The notes below the pieces were generated by a model. It was not told where the DNA came from and did not search any database. It was given only the letters and a program-made list of their open reading frames with translations. The position numbers and the translations under genes are program-made. A stretch of 64,000 nucleotides of DNA. It comes from Candidatus Endomicrobium procryptotermitis (GTDB taxonomy: Bacteria; Elusimicrobiota; Endomicrobiia; Endomicrobiales; Endomicrobiaceae). Shown piece after piece: positions 52,497 to 61,307 of this stretch. Positions within the stretch are counted from its first letter, which is position 1; each line of letters starts with the position of its first letter. The stretch lies in assembly GCA_031279415.1 (NCBI GenBank), contig JAITIP010000037.1:62001-126000 (forward strand), written 5' to 3'.

Positions 52497-53108
52497 CAAC
52501 TAATAACATATAGTAATTTACATTATGAGAAGTTCACGGACGGGAAAGTAAAATGTATACAAGATGAGATACCATTTGAGATACCGAAAGGCTGGGCATT
52601 TGAAAAATTAGGAAATATTTGCGATATTGCACGCGGAGGCTCGCCGCGTCCTATAAAAAATCATTTAACTGCTTCAAATAACGGCGTCAATTTGATAAAA
52701 ATTGGAGATACAAAACGAGGATACAAATATATTACAGCAACTAAAGAAAAAATTTTGCCTTCTGCAGTAAAGTATTCTCGCTATGTTAAAAGAGGAGATT
52801 TTTTATTAACAAATTCTATGAGTTTTGGACATCCTTATATATTAAAAATAGACGGTTGTATCCATGACGGATGGCTTGTAATTAGTCATATTGAAAATAT
52901 TTTTGATTATGATTTTTTATATTATGCGCTAAGTTCGGATACAGTATATAAATTATTGACTTCTTTAGCAGTCGGTTCAACAGTTAAAAACTTAAAAGCA
53001 GACACTATAAAATCTATTTGCTTTCTAATCCCGCCTTTAGAAGAACAAAAAAGAATAGCTAAAAAAATAGAATCAATTTTTAACCAGTTGAAGTTCTTTG
53101 AAGATTAA
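52497..53108 (+). pseudogene. hsdS: 5'-truncated HsdS (type I specificity) fragment
   Basis: The frame is open from 52497 and reads HYEKFTDGKVKCIQDEIPFEIPKGW, the standard linker into the second recognition domain of HsdS. A full C-terminal recognition domain and the coiled coil PPLEEQKRIAKKIESIFNQL follow. The N-terminal recognition domain and start codon are missing; the first ATG (52692) lies within the domain. No hsdM or hsdR is in the window. It is either a relic or a silent donor of recognition sequence, and it overlaps tail to tail with another fragment on the opposite strand. Confidence 0.85.
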
Positions 53109-53589: not shown

Positions 53590-56500
53590 ATGCCAAAAAT
53601 TATAGATAATAGACGAGTATCATTATCGCAAGTTTTAAGAGATACTGCAAAAAACCATAAACATTTAAGTATTGCTACAGGCTATTGGGATTTAGAAGGT
53701 ACCTGCGAAATTATAGAACAAATAAAAGATTACAAATCCATAAGGCTGCTTATCGGTAAAGAACCCCTTTCAACCCGCAATCAAAAAGCGCACAATATCA
53801 AAGAAGAGCTGTTCCCCGATGAGGATATTACTTTTGACTTAGAAAACAGTTCAATAAACACAGATACGTATAGCCTAACAAACTTAAGAAAAGCCGCAAA
53901 GATATTATCGCGGCTTATAGAAGAGAAGCGTTTTGAAGTAAAAGTTTTTAGGGATCCGTTTTTGCATGCTAAAGCGTATATTTTTGGCGAGAAAACTTCA
54001 ACAAATGCCGTCGGTATTATCGGTTCAAGCAATTTTACAAAATCTGGGCTTACTCAAAATGCAGAACTCAATACTTTTGAAAATGATTGCCGCATTGTAA
54101 TGTTTCAGCCTCAATCTAATGAGCAAGAGCACGGGTATTTAAGCTGGTTTGAAGAGATGTGGAATTCTTCACAAGCCGTTGAATGGACCGGCGATTTTGC
54201 AAAGATAGTTCAGCAAAGCCCGCTTGGAGATTTAACGTTTGGCGCTTATGACGTTTATATAAAAACATTAATGGAAGTTTTCCCAGAAGAATTAGAGCCA
54301 AAACCTAGACTTGAAAAAAACATTGACGATGTTTTATATTCATTTCAAAACCGCAACGCGGGACTGCTTCTTGCTAAACTAAATAAAATGGGCTTAGCGC
54401 TGCTTTCTGATTCTGTTGGGCTTGGGAAAACTGTCACAGCGGGCGCGGTAATTAAAACGTATATTTCACAAGGAGCAAAAAGAATAATTGTTATTGTTCC
54501 CGCGTCGTTAAAAGAGCAGTGGCGTCAAGATTTAGGCGAATATTTTGAACTTACCGATGAAATTGAATACAAAATAGTTTCACAGCAAAATTTAAATCAA
54601 ATCCAAGAAATGATAGATTATAATAACAAACGCTGGATAAGACCTGTTGATTTATTTGTTATAGACGAAGCGCATAATTTAAGGAGCTCAGGAAGCGAAA
54701 GATATAAAAAAATAATGGAATGGATAATCACAAATCCAAACTCAAAAGTCTTGCTTCTAACGGCAACTCCGGTAAATAACGGACTTATGGATTTAGCAAA
54801 TCAAATTCAACTTGCCGCAAAAGGCGCATTATCGTCAGTATCGGTTGAATATGAAGATAATAGAAGGAAGTTGTTACATATTGATTTTTTTGAGAGTTTA
54901 AAACGTATTCAAAACAGAATAAAGCAAGCAGAAGAAGAAAATAAACCCTTATCTAAAAAAGAATGGCAGGAAATACAAAAGACAGTATCTCAAGGACTTT
55001 CTCATTATCTTGTCCGTTCTACAAGACAGGGCATAGAAAAAGAAGGCGGCATAATATCAAAAGACGGTTCAAAAAAAGTTTTTCCTACCAGCAAGGTTAT
55101 GCCTATAGGGTATTCATATGGGCAAAAAATAGCGGATTGGGTTTCCCAAACAATAACAAATAATTTATCGGCATTTGAAGGCATAAATCCTAAAACAATA
55201 AACATAAATTTGTTTGCAGAATTTACTCAACAATCGTTGCATCCTTTAGATTTCGTTAAAGAAATTATCGCAGACAAAAATTATTATAACCGACATTTTG
55301 GTATTACCGACGATACTGTAGACAAATACGGCGACTTTTTATTTGACTCTACAGTAAATTATCCGCTCTTTGATTCAATAAGAAAAAAAGAAAATGAAAT
55401 TGTTGAAGTAATTACAAATATATTTCAAGCTGTAAATATGCTTGGGTTTGTTCCATACCGTCCTGAAATTTATCTAATAGAAATTCATGCAAAATCTATA
55501 AAAGAAATCAATGCACTTGGAAAAAAAGGCGATGAAGGCGCTAAAATCCGTATGCAGCTTGCAATTCACAATATTTTACATATTACTTGGTTAAAAAGAT
55601 TAGAATCAAGCGCCGCGGCTTTGCTTAAAAGCGTTCAAAATTATAAAAATCGTCTTGAAAAATTTGAGAAATGGTTTGAGAAAGGCTATATTTTGTCTTT
55701 TAAAGATATAACTATAGCAGAAGACGAATATGGAGAAGATATAGAAAAAGCGTTTGAAGCTTGGGAAAATTACGAACCGACAGACGAAGAAATAGAAAAC
55801 GGTAAAAATTTAGAACGTAAAGGCATAGAGAGAAAAGATGCAGATGAAAAGAAATACAATATCGCTGCGATTAGAAAAGACTTACAGAGAGATAAAAAAA
55901 TAATTCAAGTTCTTATAGAACTGCTGTCTGAACTAAAAAAACCTCAAAATAATGGCAAATTATCAAAATTTACGAAACTTGTAGAAAATATTTTACAAGA
56001 GCAAAAATACGGCAAGAAAATTTTAGTATTTAGTTTTTTTTCAGACACGATAAATTATTTAAAAGACGCTCTGCCTGATTTTTTTCAAAGTTCAATTCCT
56101 AATTTTTCACAAAGAGTCGGTTTTATTTCAGGGAAAAACGCTAAATCGTCAGATATAGTTAAAAGATTTTCGCCGAAATCTAAAAAATATATTCTAAAAC
56201 AAGGCGAAACCGAAATATATTTTCTTTTTGCAACCGACGTTTTGTCTGAAGGGCAAAATTTGCAAGATTGCGCGGTTTTAATCAATTATGATTTGCATTG
56301 GAATCCCGTGCGCATGATACAAAGAAACGGTCGTATAAATCGTCTTGGGTCATTGTTTAGCGACGTTTTTATAGCTAATGTAAAGCCCGAAGAAACTCTT
56401 GAATTATACTTAAATCTTGTCCGCCGTTTAGAAAGAAAAATCAATACCATAAAACATACTATAGGCACAGACCAGTCTGTTCTTGGCGAAAAAGAAAATC

Positions 56501-57294
56501 CGATAGAATTCATAGATGAATTCAACTCTCTAATAAAAGCCTACAGCGATAAAGAACAAGATGTTAAATCCGCAATTTTAGATTTAGAAAAAGAAGAGGA
56601 TTTCTTATCTTGGACAAATGATTATATTTATGAGCTCCGCAATTTTTTGAGAGATAACGAAAAAAATAAAGCGGAAATAGATAGAATTAAAAAAATTCCT
56701 ATTGGCAAATGGAATTATTTGCCAAAACGCGCTAAAACAGTTCCAAATAGCGACTCCTTAGCGTTAATTAGAACAATAGGAAAAACTTCCTTAACGGGAC
56801 AGTCGATAGATGAAGTTTATTTTTTAAGCGTTAAAACGCAAGAAGAAAAAGCCTCCTATATTGAAAAAGAAATAGCCTTATCTTTGATTAAAACAACCCC
56901 GGATGACAACAAAAAATTCATAGACGAAATTTTTATAGATAGGGCAATGGCGGCAAGGGTATCTAAAAATGTCGCTAAAACAAGAGCCGAAATTGCCGAT
57001 GTTAAATATGATTTTAAATACAACAAACAAATAAAAGCGTTAACCCTTTTACAAGAAGCCTATCCTTTAATTCCTTTACAAGACGTTTTGTCAAAAGGTA
57101 TTCGCAACGCTTTGCAGGCTGCGCAAATAATGTCAATTTTACGCAAAGTAAATAAAGAGAAGACAGAAAATGGCTCTGTTTTTGCAAGCACATATTCAGA
57201 ATTTGACAAACTATTGAAAGAAATTATACAAATTCAAAACGAAGAGCGTGAGATTAAAGAAACAATAGGAATATTATATTATGCCTTTAAATAG
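53590..57294 (+). CDS. PLD-nuclease-like / SNF2 helicase fusion of a defence system
   Basis: 1234 residues. The N-terminal phospholipase-D-like domain (about 1-200) has H126-A-K128-AYIFG followed by GIIGSSNFTKSG, one HKD half-site. A superfamily 2 (SNF2/DEAD-type) helicase follows: DSVGLGKTV (Walker A) near 276, D359-EAH-362, LLTATPVNNG, and the second RecA domain with FATDVLSEGQNLQDC and MIQRNGRINRLG near 910. The C-terminal part is helical. Such helicase-nucleases act with a methylase, translocating and cutting unmodified DNA. The stop overlaps the methylase start by 14 bp, so the pair is coupled. It resembles no named system exactly; DISARM class 1 also uses a SNF2 helicase and an adenine methylase, but its other genes are absent. 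Confidence 0.88.
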   Translation: MPKIIDNRRVSLSQVLRDTAKNHKHLSIATGYWDLEGTCEIIEQIKDYKSIRLLIGKEPLSTRNQKAHNIKEELFPDEDITFDLENSSINTDTYSLTNLRKAAKILSRLIEEKRFEVKVFRDPFLHAKAYIFGEKTSTNAVGIIGSSNFTKSGLTQNAELNTFENDCRIVMFQPQSNEQEHGYLSWFEEMWNSSQAVEWTGDFAKIVQQSPLGDLTFGAYDVYIKTLMEVFPEELEPKPRLEKNIDDVLYSFQNRNAGLLLAKLNKMGLALLSDSVGLGKTVTAGAVIKTYISQGAKRIIVIVPASLKEQWRQDLGEYFELTDEIEYKIVSQQNLNQIQEMIDYNNKRWIRPVDLFVIDEAHNLRSSGSERYKKIMEWIITNPNSKVLLLTATPVNNGLMDLANQIQLAAKGALSSVSVEYEDNRRKLLHIDFFESLKRIQNRIKQAEEENKPLSKKEWQEIQKTVSQGLSHYLVRSTRQGIEKEGGIISKDGSKKVFPTSKVMPIGYSYGQKIADWVSQTITNNLSAFEGINPKTININLFAEFTQQSLHPLDFVKEIIADKNYYNRHFGITDDTVDKYGDFLFDSTVNYPLFDSIRKKENEIVEVITNIFQAVNMLGFVPYRPEIYLIEIHAKSIKEINALGKKGDEGAKIRMQLAIHNILHITWLKRLESSAAALLKSVQNYKNRLEKFEKWFEKGYILSFKDITIAEDEYGEDIEKAFEAWENYEPTDEEIENGKNLERKGIERKDADEKKYNIAAIRKDLQRDKKIIQVLIELLSELKKPQNNGKLSKFTKLVENILQEQKYGKKILVFSFFSDTINYLKDALPDFFQSSIPNFSQRVGFISGKNAKSSDIVKRFSPKSKKYILKQGETEIYFLFATDVLSEGQNLQDCAVLINYDLHWNPVRMIQRNGRINRLGSLFSDVFIANVKPEETLELYLNLVRRLERKINTIKHTIGTDQSVLGEKENPIEFIDEFNSLIKAYSDKEQDVKSAILDLEKEEDFLSWTNDYIYELRNFLRDNEKNKAEIDRIKKIPIGKWNYLPKRAKTVPNSDSLALIRTIGKTSLTGQSIDEVYFLSVKTQEEKASYIEKEIALSLIKTTPDDNKKFIDEIFIDRAMAARVSKNVAKTRAEIADVKYDFKYNKQIKALTLLQEAYPLIPLQDVLSKGIRNALQAAQIMSILRKVNKEKTENGSVFASTYSEFDKLLKEIIQIQNEEREIKETIGILYYAFK

Positions 57295-60200
57295 TACATT
57301 TTTCAAAATAAGCGAACTATTAGATTTTCTTCATAAAGAAACCGACAGAAAAAAAGCGTTAAAACTTGCCGTAGAAATTGCAAGTCAAATTATATTTATC
57401 ATAGATGACAGCATTTCCTTAAAACCCGCGTCAGATATTTTACTAGACAATAAAATTTTATCTTTCCCAAACCAAAAAGTTGACGCTTGGTTTAACAAAC
57501 ATCCGCATTACCCTGATTTTAAAGCTGCGTTCGTTCATTTTAAAAACGAAAATGCTCTGTTTGAATCCAAGTTTTATTGGCTTAATGAAACCTCTACTAA
57601 AGCGCGCATATCGGCAGGAGTTATGCTCACGCCTAATTGGGAAGATTCTACGCTCACAAGATTTTCAAATTATAAAGTCGGCATAGACTTCTTTCTTACA
57701 AATGAGGCTAAAAGTTTGCTTGTAGTTTTGTCAAATCAAGGAAATTTGCGCGTTTTAGAACTTTCATGCCGACTTACAAACACGCAAATAGAAGTATTAA
57801 ATAAAATTTCGCAGGCGGGCAAATCAGCGACGCAAGAACTTATACATACAAGTTTATGGAACGCTTTTGCGTTAAAAGAAGTCAATAAAAAATTCTTTGA
57901 AGGCATTGCTGAATTATTTACTGAGCTTTTTAATTTTTTGGCTAAAACTAAAGATAGAGAAGATTCAAAATTGTTTGCCAACCGTTTAATAGGGCGTTTA
58001 TTGTTTATTTGGTTTTTAAGAAAGAAAGAACTTATAAATGAATCTTATAATTATTTTACTGCGGACGAAAATTCTGACGTTTATTATGAAAATAAATTAA
58101 AGCTTTTATTTTTTGAGATTCTAAACACGCAAGTTGAAAGCAGAAAAACAGATGATAAAGAGACGCCGTATTTAAACGGCGGACTTTTTGAGGCTCATGC
58201 AAATGATTGGATTAATGAAAATATAAAATTTCCAAAAGACTGGTTTTACAGATTGTATGAACATTTTAACAATTTTAATTTTACAACTGACGAATCAACG
58301 CCCGAATATGAACAAGTCGCCATAGACCCTGAAATGTTAGGACGCGTTTTAGAAAATTTGCTTGCAATGTTAAATACGGATACAGTTGAAAACGCCCGTA
58401 AAGCAAAAGGTGCATTTTATACCCCTCGCGAGATTGTAAGCTATATGTGCAAAGAAAGTTTAAGACAATATCTCTATGTCGCTCTTAATAATCCTGCATA
58501 CAATGACGGCGTTGATAAACTTTTAGATGAATCTGACGCTGTCTTTGAAACGGCAAACAGTAATGCTAAAAGGGATTTGTGGGGAAAAGCAAGCAAAGAT
58601 ATAGTTATTGCAAAAGTTTTATCGGCATTAGATAATTTAAAAGTTTTAGATCCGGCTTGCGGCTCGGGAGCGTTTCCTATGGGAATGCTGCAGATTTTGT
58701 TAAAAAGCTATGAAAGACTTGATTCTCGTTTTGACCCATACAAAATAAAATTAGGCATATTAGAAAATAATATTTATGGAGTTGACATAGAGCCGATGGC
58801 TGTAGAAATATCAAGGTTAAGAGCATGGCTTTCGCTTATTGTTGACACTCCGTTAAATAAAACTGTTGAACCTTTGCCGAATTTAGATTTTAAATTTGTC
58901 TGCGCTAATTCTTTAATTTCGCTTGAAAAATCATCGACATTATTTGACGATGTGGATACCGAAGAAGAATTGCTAAAGGAAAAAGAACGTCTTTATGGTG
59001 AACATGACCACAACAAAGCAGAAAAAATAAGAAATAAGGTGCAAGAACTAACAGATAAATTAGTTAGTTTAGAAGTAAATGAAGCGACGGCATCAGGCCG
59101 TGCAAAACAATTGCGTTCAATAGATTTCAAGGATACAACTAAACCTGCTTTATGTTTTGACGTTTTTTGGCATTTTGGCTTAAAAACAGACCTCAACGGC
59201 GGCTGTTTTGATATTGTTATCGGCAATCCACCGTATGTGTCCACTAAAGGACTAAAGAAAGAAGAAAAGGATATTTTGCAAAAAGAATTTGGATTTTCTG
59301 ACGATATGTATAATCATTTCTTTTTTAAGGGAATACAGCTTTTATCTAAAAACGGAAATCTTTCTTTTATTACTTCAAAAACTTTTTGGACAACTCAAAC
59401 AAAACAAAATTTACGCAATATGTTGTTAACTAAAAAGATAAATTATATTTTTGACACAGCAAATCCTTTTGAATCTGCAATGGTTGATACAAGCGTTATA
59501 TCTGTGCAAAATAGCAGCCCAGAAGGAAATCAGGTTCGTTTTTTAGATGGGGGTAAAGATTTGAGAAACTATAAAGTTTATTCTGTCGCTCAATCCATTT
59601 ATTTAAACGTTCAAAATTCTGTAATTTTCAAGCCGACGCAGGAAAATCTAAAAATATATGAATTATATGGACAGAAAGTGAAAGAGTTGTATGATAAATG
59701 GTGGGATAAAATAAAAACTAGTAAGGATATAGAAAAAAATAAAAATGAATTAAAAACATATTGCAAAAGTTTAAAACCCGGAGATATTGCTTTACTTGGA
59801 TGTCTCACAGAGGGCGGACAAGGATTAGCAACAGCTAATAACGGTAAATACATTGCTGTTAGAAAATCTACAAAATGGGCGAAAAATATTATTAAAGAGC
59901 GTCCTAAAAAGTTGGCTAAGCTAATAAGAGAAAAGAAAATTTCTATGGCTGGTTTTGCAAATACAGTCGATTATTTGGATTCTTTGAATGAAAAAGAAAT
60001 TGCCGCATTGTTTGACGATCTAAAAGAAAAATACGGTAGAGACGTTTTTGGACAAGGGTATTTATATCGTCTAATTGACGATGATGAAATTGCTGACGTA
60101 GATGCGCTTACAGAAGATGAAAAGAAAAATGGCATATCAGAAAATAAAAAATACTATGTACCTTATGATAAAGGAGATAAAGACGGTAATCGTTGGTATC

Positions 60201-60697
60201 TTGAAACGCCTTTTGCTATTGCTTGGACACAAAAAAACGTCCGTTTTTTAAAGACAGATACAAATGCTAGGTATCAAGGATATATGTTCTATTTTAAGGA
60301 AGGTTTTTGTTGGTCAGATATAAGCGATACGCGAATAAGATGTAGATTAAAATCAAATAGTATCCATGACGTTACAAGTATGTCTTTGTTTTCCATCTAT
60401 AAAAACATCCCGAATATTTATTTTATTTGTATTATTGTTTCGTCTTTTACTGGGAGATACATAAAAAATTTTATCAATAATACATCTCATTTCCAGATAA
60501 ATGATGCTCGACAACTACCTATAATTATTCCTTCAAATGAACAAATATTTGATTTTGAAAAATTATTCAATTTTGCCTATGAAACTAAAAGAAAGTTGTT
60601 TTTAAATCAAATATCAGAAAATAAGGCACAGGATAAACTGTTAGAAATACAGGTAAATTTAGATAAAATGGTAGAGAAATTATACAGAATAATATAA
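57281..60697 (+). CDS. Eco57I/PglX-like N6-adenine DNA methyltransferase with exchangeable recognition domain
   Basis: 1138 residues. The N-terminal ~360 residues are helical. AKGAFYTPREIVSYM (near 375), LDPACGSGAFPMG (SAM binding, near 456), NIYGVDIEPMAVEISRLR and N649-PPY-652 (catalytic) define a gamma-type adenine methylase. A target-recognition and C-terminal helical region follows (about 780-1138). From about residue 986 (VRFLKT, FYFKEGFCW) to the end, the sequence has a homologous, diverged counterpart on the opposite strand immediately downstream, bounded by identical nucleotide repeats, so this C-terminus is predicted to be exchangeable by inversion. It should protect the host and set the specificity of the helicase partner. 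Confidence 0.88.
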   Translation: MPLNSTFFKISELLDFLHKETDRKKALKLAVEIASQIIFIIDDSISLKPASDILLDNKILSFPNQKVDAWFNKHPHYPDFKAAFVHFKNENALFESKFYWLNETSTKARISAGVMLTPNWEDSTLTRFSNYKVGIDFFLTNEAKSLLVVLSNQGNLRVLELSCRLTNTQIEVLNKISQAGKSATQELIHTSLWNAFALKEVNKKFFEGIAELFTELFNFLAKTKDREDSKLFANRLIGRLLFIWFLRKKELINESYNYFTADENSDVYYENKLKLLFFEILNTQVESRKTDDKETPYLNGGLFEAHANDWINENIKFPKDWFYRLYEHFNNFNFTTDESTPEYEQVAIDPEMLGRVLENLLAMLNTDTVENARKAKGAFYTPREIVSYMCKESLRQYLYVALNNPAYNDGVDKLLDESDAVFETANSNAKRDLWGKASKDIVIAKVLSALDNLKVLDPACGSGAFPMGMLQILLKSYERLDSRFDPYKIKLGILENNIYGVDIEPMAVEISRLRAWLSLIVDTPLNKTVEPLPNLDFKFVCANSLISLEKSSTLFDDVDTEEELLKEKERLYGEHDHNKAEKIRNKVQELTDKLVSLEVNEATASGRAKQLRSIDFKDTTKPALCFDVFWHFGLKTDLNGGCFDIVIGNPPYVSTKGLKKEEKDILQKEFGFSDDMYNHFFFKGIQLLSKNGNLSFITSKTFWTTQTKQNLRNMLLTKKINYIFDTANPFESAMVDTSVISVQNSSPEGNQVRFLDGGKDLRNYKVYSVAQSIYLNVQNSVIFKPTQENLKIYELYGQKVKELYDKWWDKIKTSKDIEKNKNELKTYCKSLKPGDIALLGCLTEGGQGLATANNGKYIAVRKSTKWAKNIIKERPKKLAKLIREKKISMAGFANTVDYLDSLNEKEIAALFDDLKEKYGRDVFGQGYLYRLIDDDEIADVDALTEDEKKNGISENKKYYVPYDKGDKDGNRWYLETPFAIAWTQKNVRFLKTDTNARYQGYMFYFKEGFCWSDISDTRIRCRLKSNSIHDVTSMSLFSIYKNIPNIYFICIIVSSFTGRYIKNFINNTSHFQINDARQLPIIIPSNEQIFDFEKLFNFAYETKRKLFLNQISENKAQDKLLEIQVNLDKMVEKLYRII
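60237..60256 (+). repeat. inverted repeat A, left copy (20 bp)
   Basis: acgtccgttttttaaagaca inside the methylase gene; exact reverse complement at 61148-61167. It encodes VRFLKT in both orientations. Confidence 0.9.
60286..60313 (+). repeat. inverted repeat B, left copy (28 bp)
   Basis: Begins gttctattttaagg and ends tttttgttgg; exact reverse complement at 61073-61100. It encodes FYFKEGFCW in both orientations. Confidence 0.9.
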
Positions 60698-61072
60698 TTG
60701 GTAAACAAAATCATTAAGTTTTTGCTCTATTTCTGATAATTTCTTTGTAATGTCAGTTTTTTGTAAAAACCCATCAAATATTTTTTTCTTTAAATCTATA
60801 GCTTGCTTAACTAATGGTTGACAGATGTTTAATTGTTTTCTTGTAGGTATTAAAATAGGTAGTTGTCTGATATCATTTATTTGGATATTAACTGTACAGT
60901 TAATGTATTCTCTATAGTAATCAAATAATAACTCAGAATTTAATAAAACAACAATATAATAATTCGGTAACGAATCGACAACAGAATTCAATGACATTGA
61001 ACCAACATCATTTACAGATTTATTCTTTATTTTTACCTTTAACAAACGCGCTTGCGGATTTAAAACATTTGT

Positions 61073-61100
61073 CCAACAAAAACCTTCCTTAAAATAGAAC
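61073..61100 (-). repeat. inverted repeat B, right copy (28 bp)
   Basis: Exact reverse complement of 60286-60313, inside the silent cassette. Confidence 0.9.
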
Positions 61101-61136
61101 TGCGGATTTCTGAAAACAGGCATTCCTTCTCCTTTT

Positions 61137-61307
61137 TTACCAGAATTTGTCTTTAAAAAACGGACGTATCTTTCCGTCATCTCCCCATATAACCTCATAA
61201 TCACTATTAGAGAAAAATGGCGGGGCTATATAACATAAATCCATGCTTTCATTCGGCAGCTTTTTCAAAACTTCCAGATTATCGACTAATATCACTTGGT
61301 TTTTCAT
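61137..61307 (-). pseudogene. N-terminal fragment of a beta-class site-specific DNA methyltransferase
   Basis: 56 codons from the ATG at 61307: a VILVDNLEVLKKLPNESMDL start, then YIAPPFFSNSDYEVIWGDDG, then a premature stop. This is the conserved opening of type III Mod-like methyltransferases, usually YIDPPFFSN...YEVIWGD. The catalytic D-P-P-F has become A-P-P-F. The homology ends where repeat A begins, so the gene was cut by the recombination that placed the cassette here. It should be inactive. Confidence 0.8.
61148..61167 (-). repeat. inverted repeat A, right copy (20 bp)
   Basis: Exact reverse complement of 60237-60256. It is read as VRFLKT in the cassette frame and as part of IRPFFKD in the overlapping methyltransferase fragment. 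Confidence 0.9.

Follow-up and report, generated by a model that had tools for sequence, protein, structure and literature searches.

A predicted invertible recognition-domain switch in a single-chain type IIG/PglX-like methylase gene of Candidatus Endomicrobium procryptotermitis

A methylase gene followed by an inverted recognition-domain cassette

Near the end of the window, by which we mean the whole 64,000-nucleotide stretch of DNA analysed, we saw a helicase gene that overlaps a gene for a large adenine methylase, with a cassette on the opposite strand directly behind the latter (Table 1). The methylase has DPACGSG and NPPY motifs and the layout of a type IIG enzyme, i.e., a gamma-type methylase with an N-terminal extension and a C-terminal recognition domain in one chain, while by Pfam the PLD nuclease-like domain sits in the neighbouring helicase. 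A genome of the same family (G007) encodes a methylase that is 72% identical. A helicase homolog lies upstream of nearly all related methylases, and on an 11.8-kb Lactiplantibacillus plasmid the helicase and methylase form a two-gene unit. We rejected three other assignments: the methylase scored 149 bits against the BREX PglX model NF033452 (NCBIfam curated cut-off 500), the helicase scored 166.5 bits against DrmD of DISARM (curated cut-off 610), and the Methylase_S domain of type I hsdS (PF01420) was absent by Pfam from both the methylase and the cassette. We recognized no pglZ or brxC beside the methylase in the list of open reading frames from 50 to 64 kb, judged by eye only. Half a type I specificity subunit (Methylase_S, 138 residues) is encoded just upstream of the helicase (52692-53108, plus strand), with no hsdM or hsdR recognized beside it. 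An AlphaFold model of methylase residues 401-1138 had a mean pLDDT of 62 with a poor recognition domain, and was set aside.

Table 1. Features of the methylase locus, in window coordinates
Feature	Position	Strand	Basis or remark
PLD-domain SNF2-type helicase, presumed restriction partner	53590..57294	+	Pfam PLDc_2, RE_NgoFVII, SNF2-rel_dom, Helicase_C
Type IIG/PglX-like adenine methylase, 1138 residues	57281..60697	+	Eco57I PF07669, E=3.7e-32; PADLOC REase_MTase_IIG, 548 bits
Site A, methylase copy	60237..60256	+	(AA)ACGTCCGTTTTTTAAAGACA; half-sites AAACG/CGTTT flank central TC
A-B linker, allele i (TDTNARYQGYM)	60257..60285	+	Two linker alleles common to several phyla
Site B, methylase copy: GTTCTATTTTAAGGAAGGTTTTTGTTGG (FYFKEGFCW)	60286..60313	+	Exact 28-bp inverted repeat
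Expressed recognition-domain segment, class gamma	60314..60697	+	Domain comparison and tree
Silent cassette: alternative recognition domain, class beta, linker allele ii	60680..61204	-	PADLOC PglX and weak Pfam TaqI_C matches; domain and linker comparison
Site B, cassette copy	61073..61100	-	Exact 28-bp inverted repeat
Site A, cassette (outer) copy	61148..61167	-	Exact 20-bp inverted repeat; outer half-site ATACG
DNA methylase gene of the beta class, truncated 5' end only, fused at site A	61140..61307	-	78% identical to N-terminus of G000:C25:51817-52719

The original prediction was that the methylase C-terminus and the cassette encode homologous yet different recognition domains bounded by two exact inverted repeats, and both repeats were found in the places it gave, A with 20 bp and B with 28 bp, the minus-strand frame being ~38% identical to the methylase C-terminus. 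In 300 third-order Markov simulations of positions 57281-61300 the longest exact inverted repeat had a mean of 13.8 bp and a maximum of 22 bp, so that the observed B exceeds all of them. It had also been argued that the identical nucleotides point to recombination rather than mere homology; on the premise that the peptides VRFLKT and FYFKEGFCW alone are conserved, we calculated a chance of ~1.5e-4 for joint codon identity in both copies, which favors that argument, while downstream of the A and B blocks the same codon was used at 22 of 42 identical residues. Inversion in silico preserved the reading frame and gave a full-length methylase ending LYYSV, as expected (1147 residues via A, 1141 via B), and the displaced domain likewise remained open after inversion at either site; both recognition domains are open as they stand, with no decay.

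Related loci and the two exchange points

Searching species genomes with the methylase, we obtained 60 loci, and in eight of them the methylase has a homologous serine recombinase as its neighbor (L040, L041, L043, L045, L046, L050, L056 and L058). Three further loci in the same phylum (L115, L140 and L141) and two Lactococcus plasmids (L118 and L121) brought the total of other loci with an Mpi-family serine invertase adjoining the methylase to 13. The layout of helicase, methylase, inverted recognition-domain cassette(s) and Mpi-like serine invertase was found in at least four phyla (Bacteroidota, Bacillota, Actinomycetota and other Elusimicrobiota), with one to three cassettes on either strand between methylase and recombinase. 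A plasmid search identified one close methylase; viral contigs gave no match, and phage records gave weak, partial methylase matches only. We asked whether contigs tend to end near the recognition domain, as mixed orientation might cause, and found the signal unconvincing (8/22 versus 9/37 controls). In L140 (G020:C17), a switch of the same family, a 37-bp inverted repeat lies over the catalytic NPPY motif and inversion would swap everything after it (1190 to 1095 residues, both open). In L119 (plasmid pHRM2a, Desulforapulum) an Mpi-family invertase gene precedes genes for a helicase and for a different kind of site-specific DNA methyltransferase.

Blocks resembling A and B were present on both arms in eight loci (the window, L040, L041, L043, L045, L056, L058 and L115). 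Several loci had substitutions of their own in these blocks, common to both arms, while the flanks outside A were unrelated; the blocks thus behave as recombination sites would be expected to. Between A and B we distinguished two linker alleles, i (TDxxARYQGY) and ii (TNSGKKGxGMPVxRNPQ), and the two arms carried opposite alleles in seven of the eight loci. Each of the domain classes alpha, beta, gamma and delta was found with both linkers, which requires exchange at B, between linker and domain, and the scrambling of linker and domain types across loci indicates that A and B have both been exchange points. On the tree, domain classes changed between the expressed and the silent position at least seven times, three of these changes being forced by strongly supported branches. 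Class beta was silent in all eight loci where it stood beside another domain (L041, L042, L043, L045, L056, L115, L117 and the window), so switching may be rare or biased. Two nested sites together with two A-B linker alleles would in principle allow four methylases per locus and not two, a possibility drawn from this comparison across loci.

What we regard as the strongest evidence that the architecture switches came from the Lactococcus plasmids. The invertase proteins of pJM1F and pUCCL629A are identical, and their methylase bodies are collinear (92%). What pJM1F expresses as its recognition domain is stored in pUCCL629A as the silent cassette (99.2% DNA identity over 496 bp), and the silent cassette of pJM1F is 85% identical to the domain that pUCCL629A expresses. 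Two other plasmids, pUCCL635A and pLLUC147A, have a methylase body 98.5% identical to that of pJM1F and express its silent domain (87%), with neither cassette nor invertase. The repeat core of the Lactococcus loci, GAGCGATTATGTACGAC, differs from site A.

Recombinase candidates and rearranged junctions

The original prediction was correct that the window contains no recombinase gene of either the serine or the tyrosine type, and the search of the rest of the genome that it proposed found a single serine recombinase, intact, on another contig (G000:C18). This protein passes the NCBIfam Mpi model NF009949 (301 bits versus a cut-off of 272, residues 1-196). Seven matches to tyrosine recombinases in the genome were set aside, since the adjacent enzymes of the relatives are of the serine type. 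Directly 5' of the C18 gene lies a 66-bp stretch (L006:6520-6585, which is G000:C18:94519-94584) that is 92% identical to the A-B region of the methylase and contains partial halves of both sites. The published Mpi site of B. fragilis is ARACGTTCGTN (PMC8375218), with which the methylase copy of site A (AAACGTCCGTT) agrees at 10 of 11 positions and the outer copy (ATACGTCCGTT) at 9 of 11; in a search of the whole genome the full site was matched only by the two A copies. In B. fragilis itself the target sites of Mpi are many and distant (PMC4747536). The C18 protein clusters with Mpi of Parabacteroides and with Elusimicrobiota relatives (67–68%), outside the clade of invertases from loci with A sites (51–57%), and two of its closest relatives stand alone, without a methylase; because of this grouping and these solitary relatives we treat it as the leading candidate only, one that may act in trans on the A-A segment.

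The place past the outer A copy that the invertase occupies in relatives is taken in the window by a 5' fragment of a DNA methylase gene of the beta class, and the paralog of that fragment on contig C25 has an Mpi-like sequence, GATACGCTCGTTTAAGG, at the junction. At L117:9750-11360 (G156:C7) we saw two recognition-domain segments and an invertase with no methylase body, and at B an alcohol dehydrogenase gene is fused to this unit; we rejected the idea that the unit is a mobile element, as a deletion that brought that gene up to site B would account for it equally well. That such junctions fall at A or B in loci independent of one another suggests past recombination at these sites, illegitimate recombination being an alternative. 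Elsewhere in the source genome, matches to N6_N4 methylases are clustered on one strand with several frames interrupted (G000:C15:18795-30243), which resembles a restriction-modification gene array that has decayed.

Proposed mechanism, alternatives and relation to known systems

In the mechanism we propose, site-specific recombination between the two A copies would flip positions 60237-61167 and replace linker i and domain gamma with the stored linker ii and domain beta, while exchange between the two B copies would swap the domain and keep the linker, so that up to four methylases could be obtained from one locus. The expected enzyme would be an Mpi-family serine invertase such as is encoded next door in related loci; with the adjacent invertase missing here, the C18 gene may serve in trans. 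A new domain should alter the motif that is methylated and, together with the PLD-helicase, the one that is restricted; the change in methylation is expected from where the recognition domain lies in PglX (PMC11341690). The idea of a switch in an Eco57I/PglX-like methylase beside a PLD-helicase gained support from the 13 loci with adjacent invertases and from the swapped Lactococcus plasmids, and was refined to one with two nested sites and alternative linkers. Judged from these sequence comparisons, it is quite probable that the locus has the design of an invertible recognition-domain switch in a single-chain methylase. As the adjacent invertase is missing and the candidate lies on another contig, present flipping in the source genome is something that we infer.

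It is on present activity that the most serious rival differs from this reading: the locus may be a former switch, now locked, whose dedicated invertase was lost by rearrangement at A, with the cassette a silent relic and the distant recombinase serving other sites. This would account for the missing neighbor, for the fusion of the cassette's outer edge at A to a fragment of another gene, and for the place of the genome's own C18 recombinase outside the clade of A-site invertases, and G156 offers a comparable remnant in its domain pair and invertase without a methylase body. However, the repeats are exact, the central TC dinucleotides match, the outer half-sites are near the consensus and both domains are open, and the genome retains an intact Mpi-family gene with a copy of the A-B region at its 5' side. 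We give the locked relic a substantial weight that falls a little short of even, and because it shares the switch design with our preferred explanation the two weights overlap.

The remaining alternatives dispense with a site-specific recombinase or with movement altogether. RecA-dependent homologous recombination or gene conversion could exchange domains at short identical blocks, as restriction enzymes commonly do at conserved blocks; B is a coding block conserved in the protein, and L045, L050 and L141 have long repeats of 80–135 bp that would suit this route. Yet repeats of 20 and 28 bp are short for exchange by RecA, 13 loci have an Mpi-family invertase next to the methylase, and A resembles the Mpi site, with the identical tract beginning beside the presumed crossover dinucleotide, and we consider this route unlikely. 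That the cassette is a static duplicated domain, its repeats due to peptide conservation alone, appears more improbable still, indeed very much so: FYFKEGFCW is conserved across the methylase family and block B taken alone would match in its codons by chance at P ~0.025, but the joint codon identity of A and B, the locus-specific substitutions common to both arms and the swapped positions found in nature in Lactococcus all stand against it.

Our preferred reading of a site-specific switch has precedent in BREX, for Goldfarb in 2015 is said to have described inversion of pglX in some systems, with inverted partial copies at some loci. Like BREX pglX, the gene here encodes a single-chain methylase of related sequence with a C-terminal recognition domain; unlike it, it scores far below the PglX cut-off, has a PLD-helicase in place of BREX genes and is associated with Mpi-type serine invertases. 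Type IIG variation in Campylobacter is an on/off mechanism at repeat tracts, whereas here a domain would be exchanged. The Campylobacter case is nonetheless alike in that the phase-variable enzyme is of type IIG (Anjum 2016, as given in PMC5903667). In type I hsdS loci such as the pneumococcal cod locus, inversion between repeats swaps a target-recognition domain (PMC4948785, PMC7394358), and hence DNA specificity, as predicted here; the specificity subunit is separate there, whereas here the domain is the C-terminus of a one-chain methylase with no HsdS domain, and the enzyme that inverts the pneumococcal locus is PsrA (PMC11709252), in place of the Mpi-family serine recombinase associated here. 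The B. fragilis Mpi system shares the recombinase family, distant inverted repeats and a similar site, but flips promoters of surface polysaccharides (PMC4747536, PMC8375218) and not methylase coding sequence. Our literature search found no report of the architecture; Goldfarb 2015, Milman 2023 and Chanin 2024 lay outside that search and may already list part of it. Relative to the known inverting hsdS and pglX genes, what appears new is an invertase of the Mpi type, a helicase as partner, nested sites combined with two linker alleles, and occurrence in several phyla. As a joint proposal, which we hold tentatively and at less than even weight, Mpi-family invertases would drive nested-site switches with four specificities across phyla, running in trans in this genome, and off-target recombination at Mpi-like sites would fuse the unit to other genes.

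Most known cases of inversion-driven epigenetic phase variation are type I hsdS genes. A one-chain switch with a simple helicase and a portable serine invertase, together with the Lactococcus variants, would offer a two-gene system in which the switching of specificity can be tested. Such a switch would also show where nature cuts a recognition domain for swapping, and would explain how one locus could present several specificities to phages.
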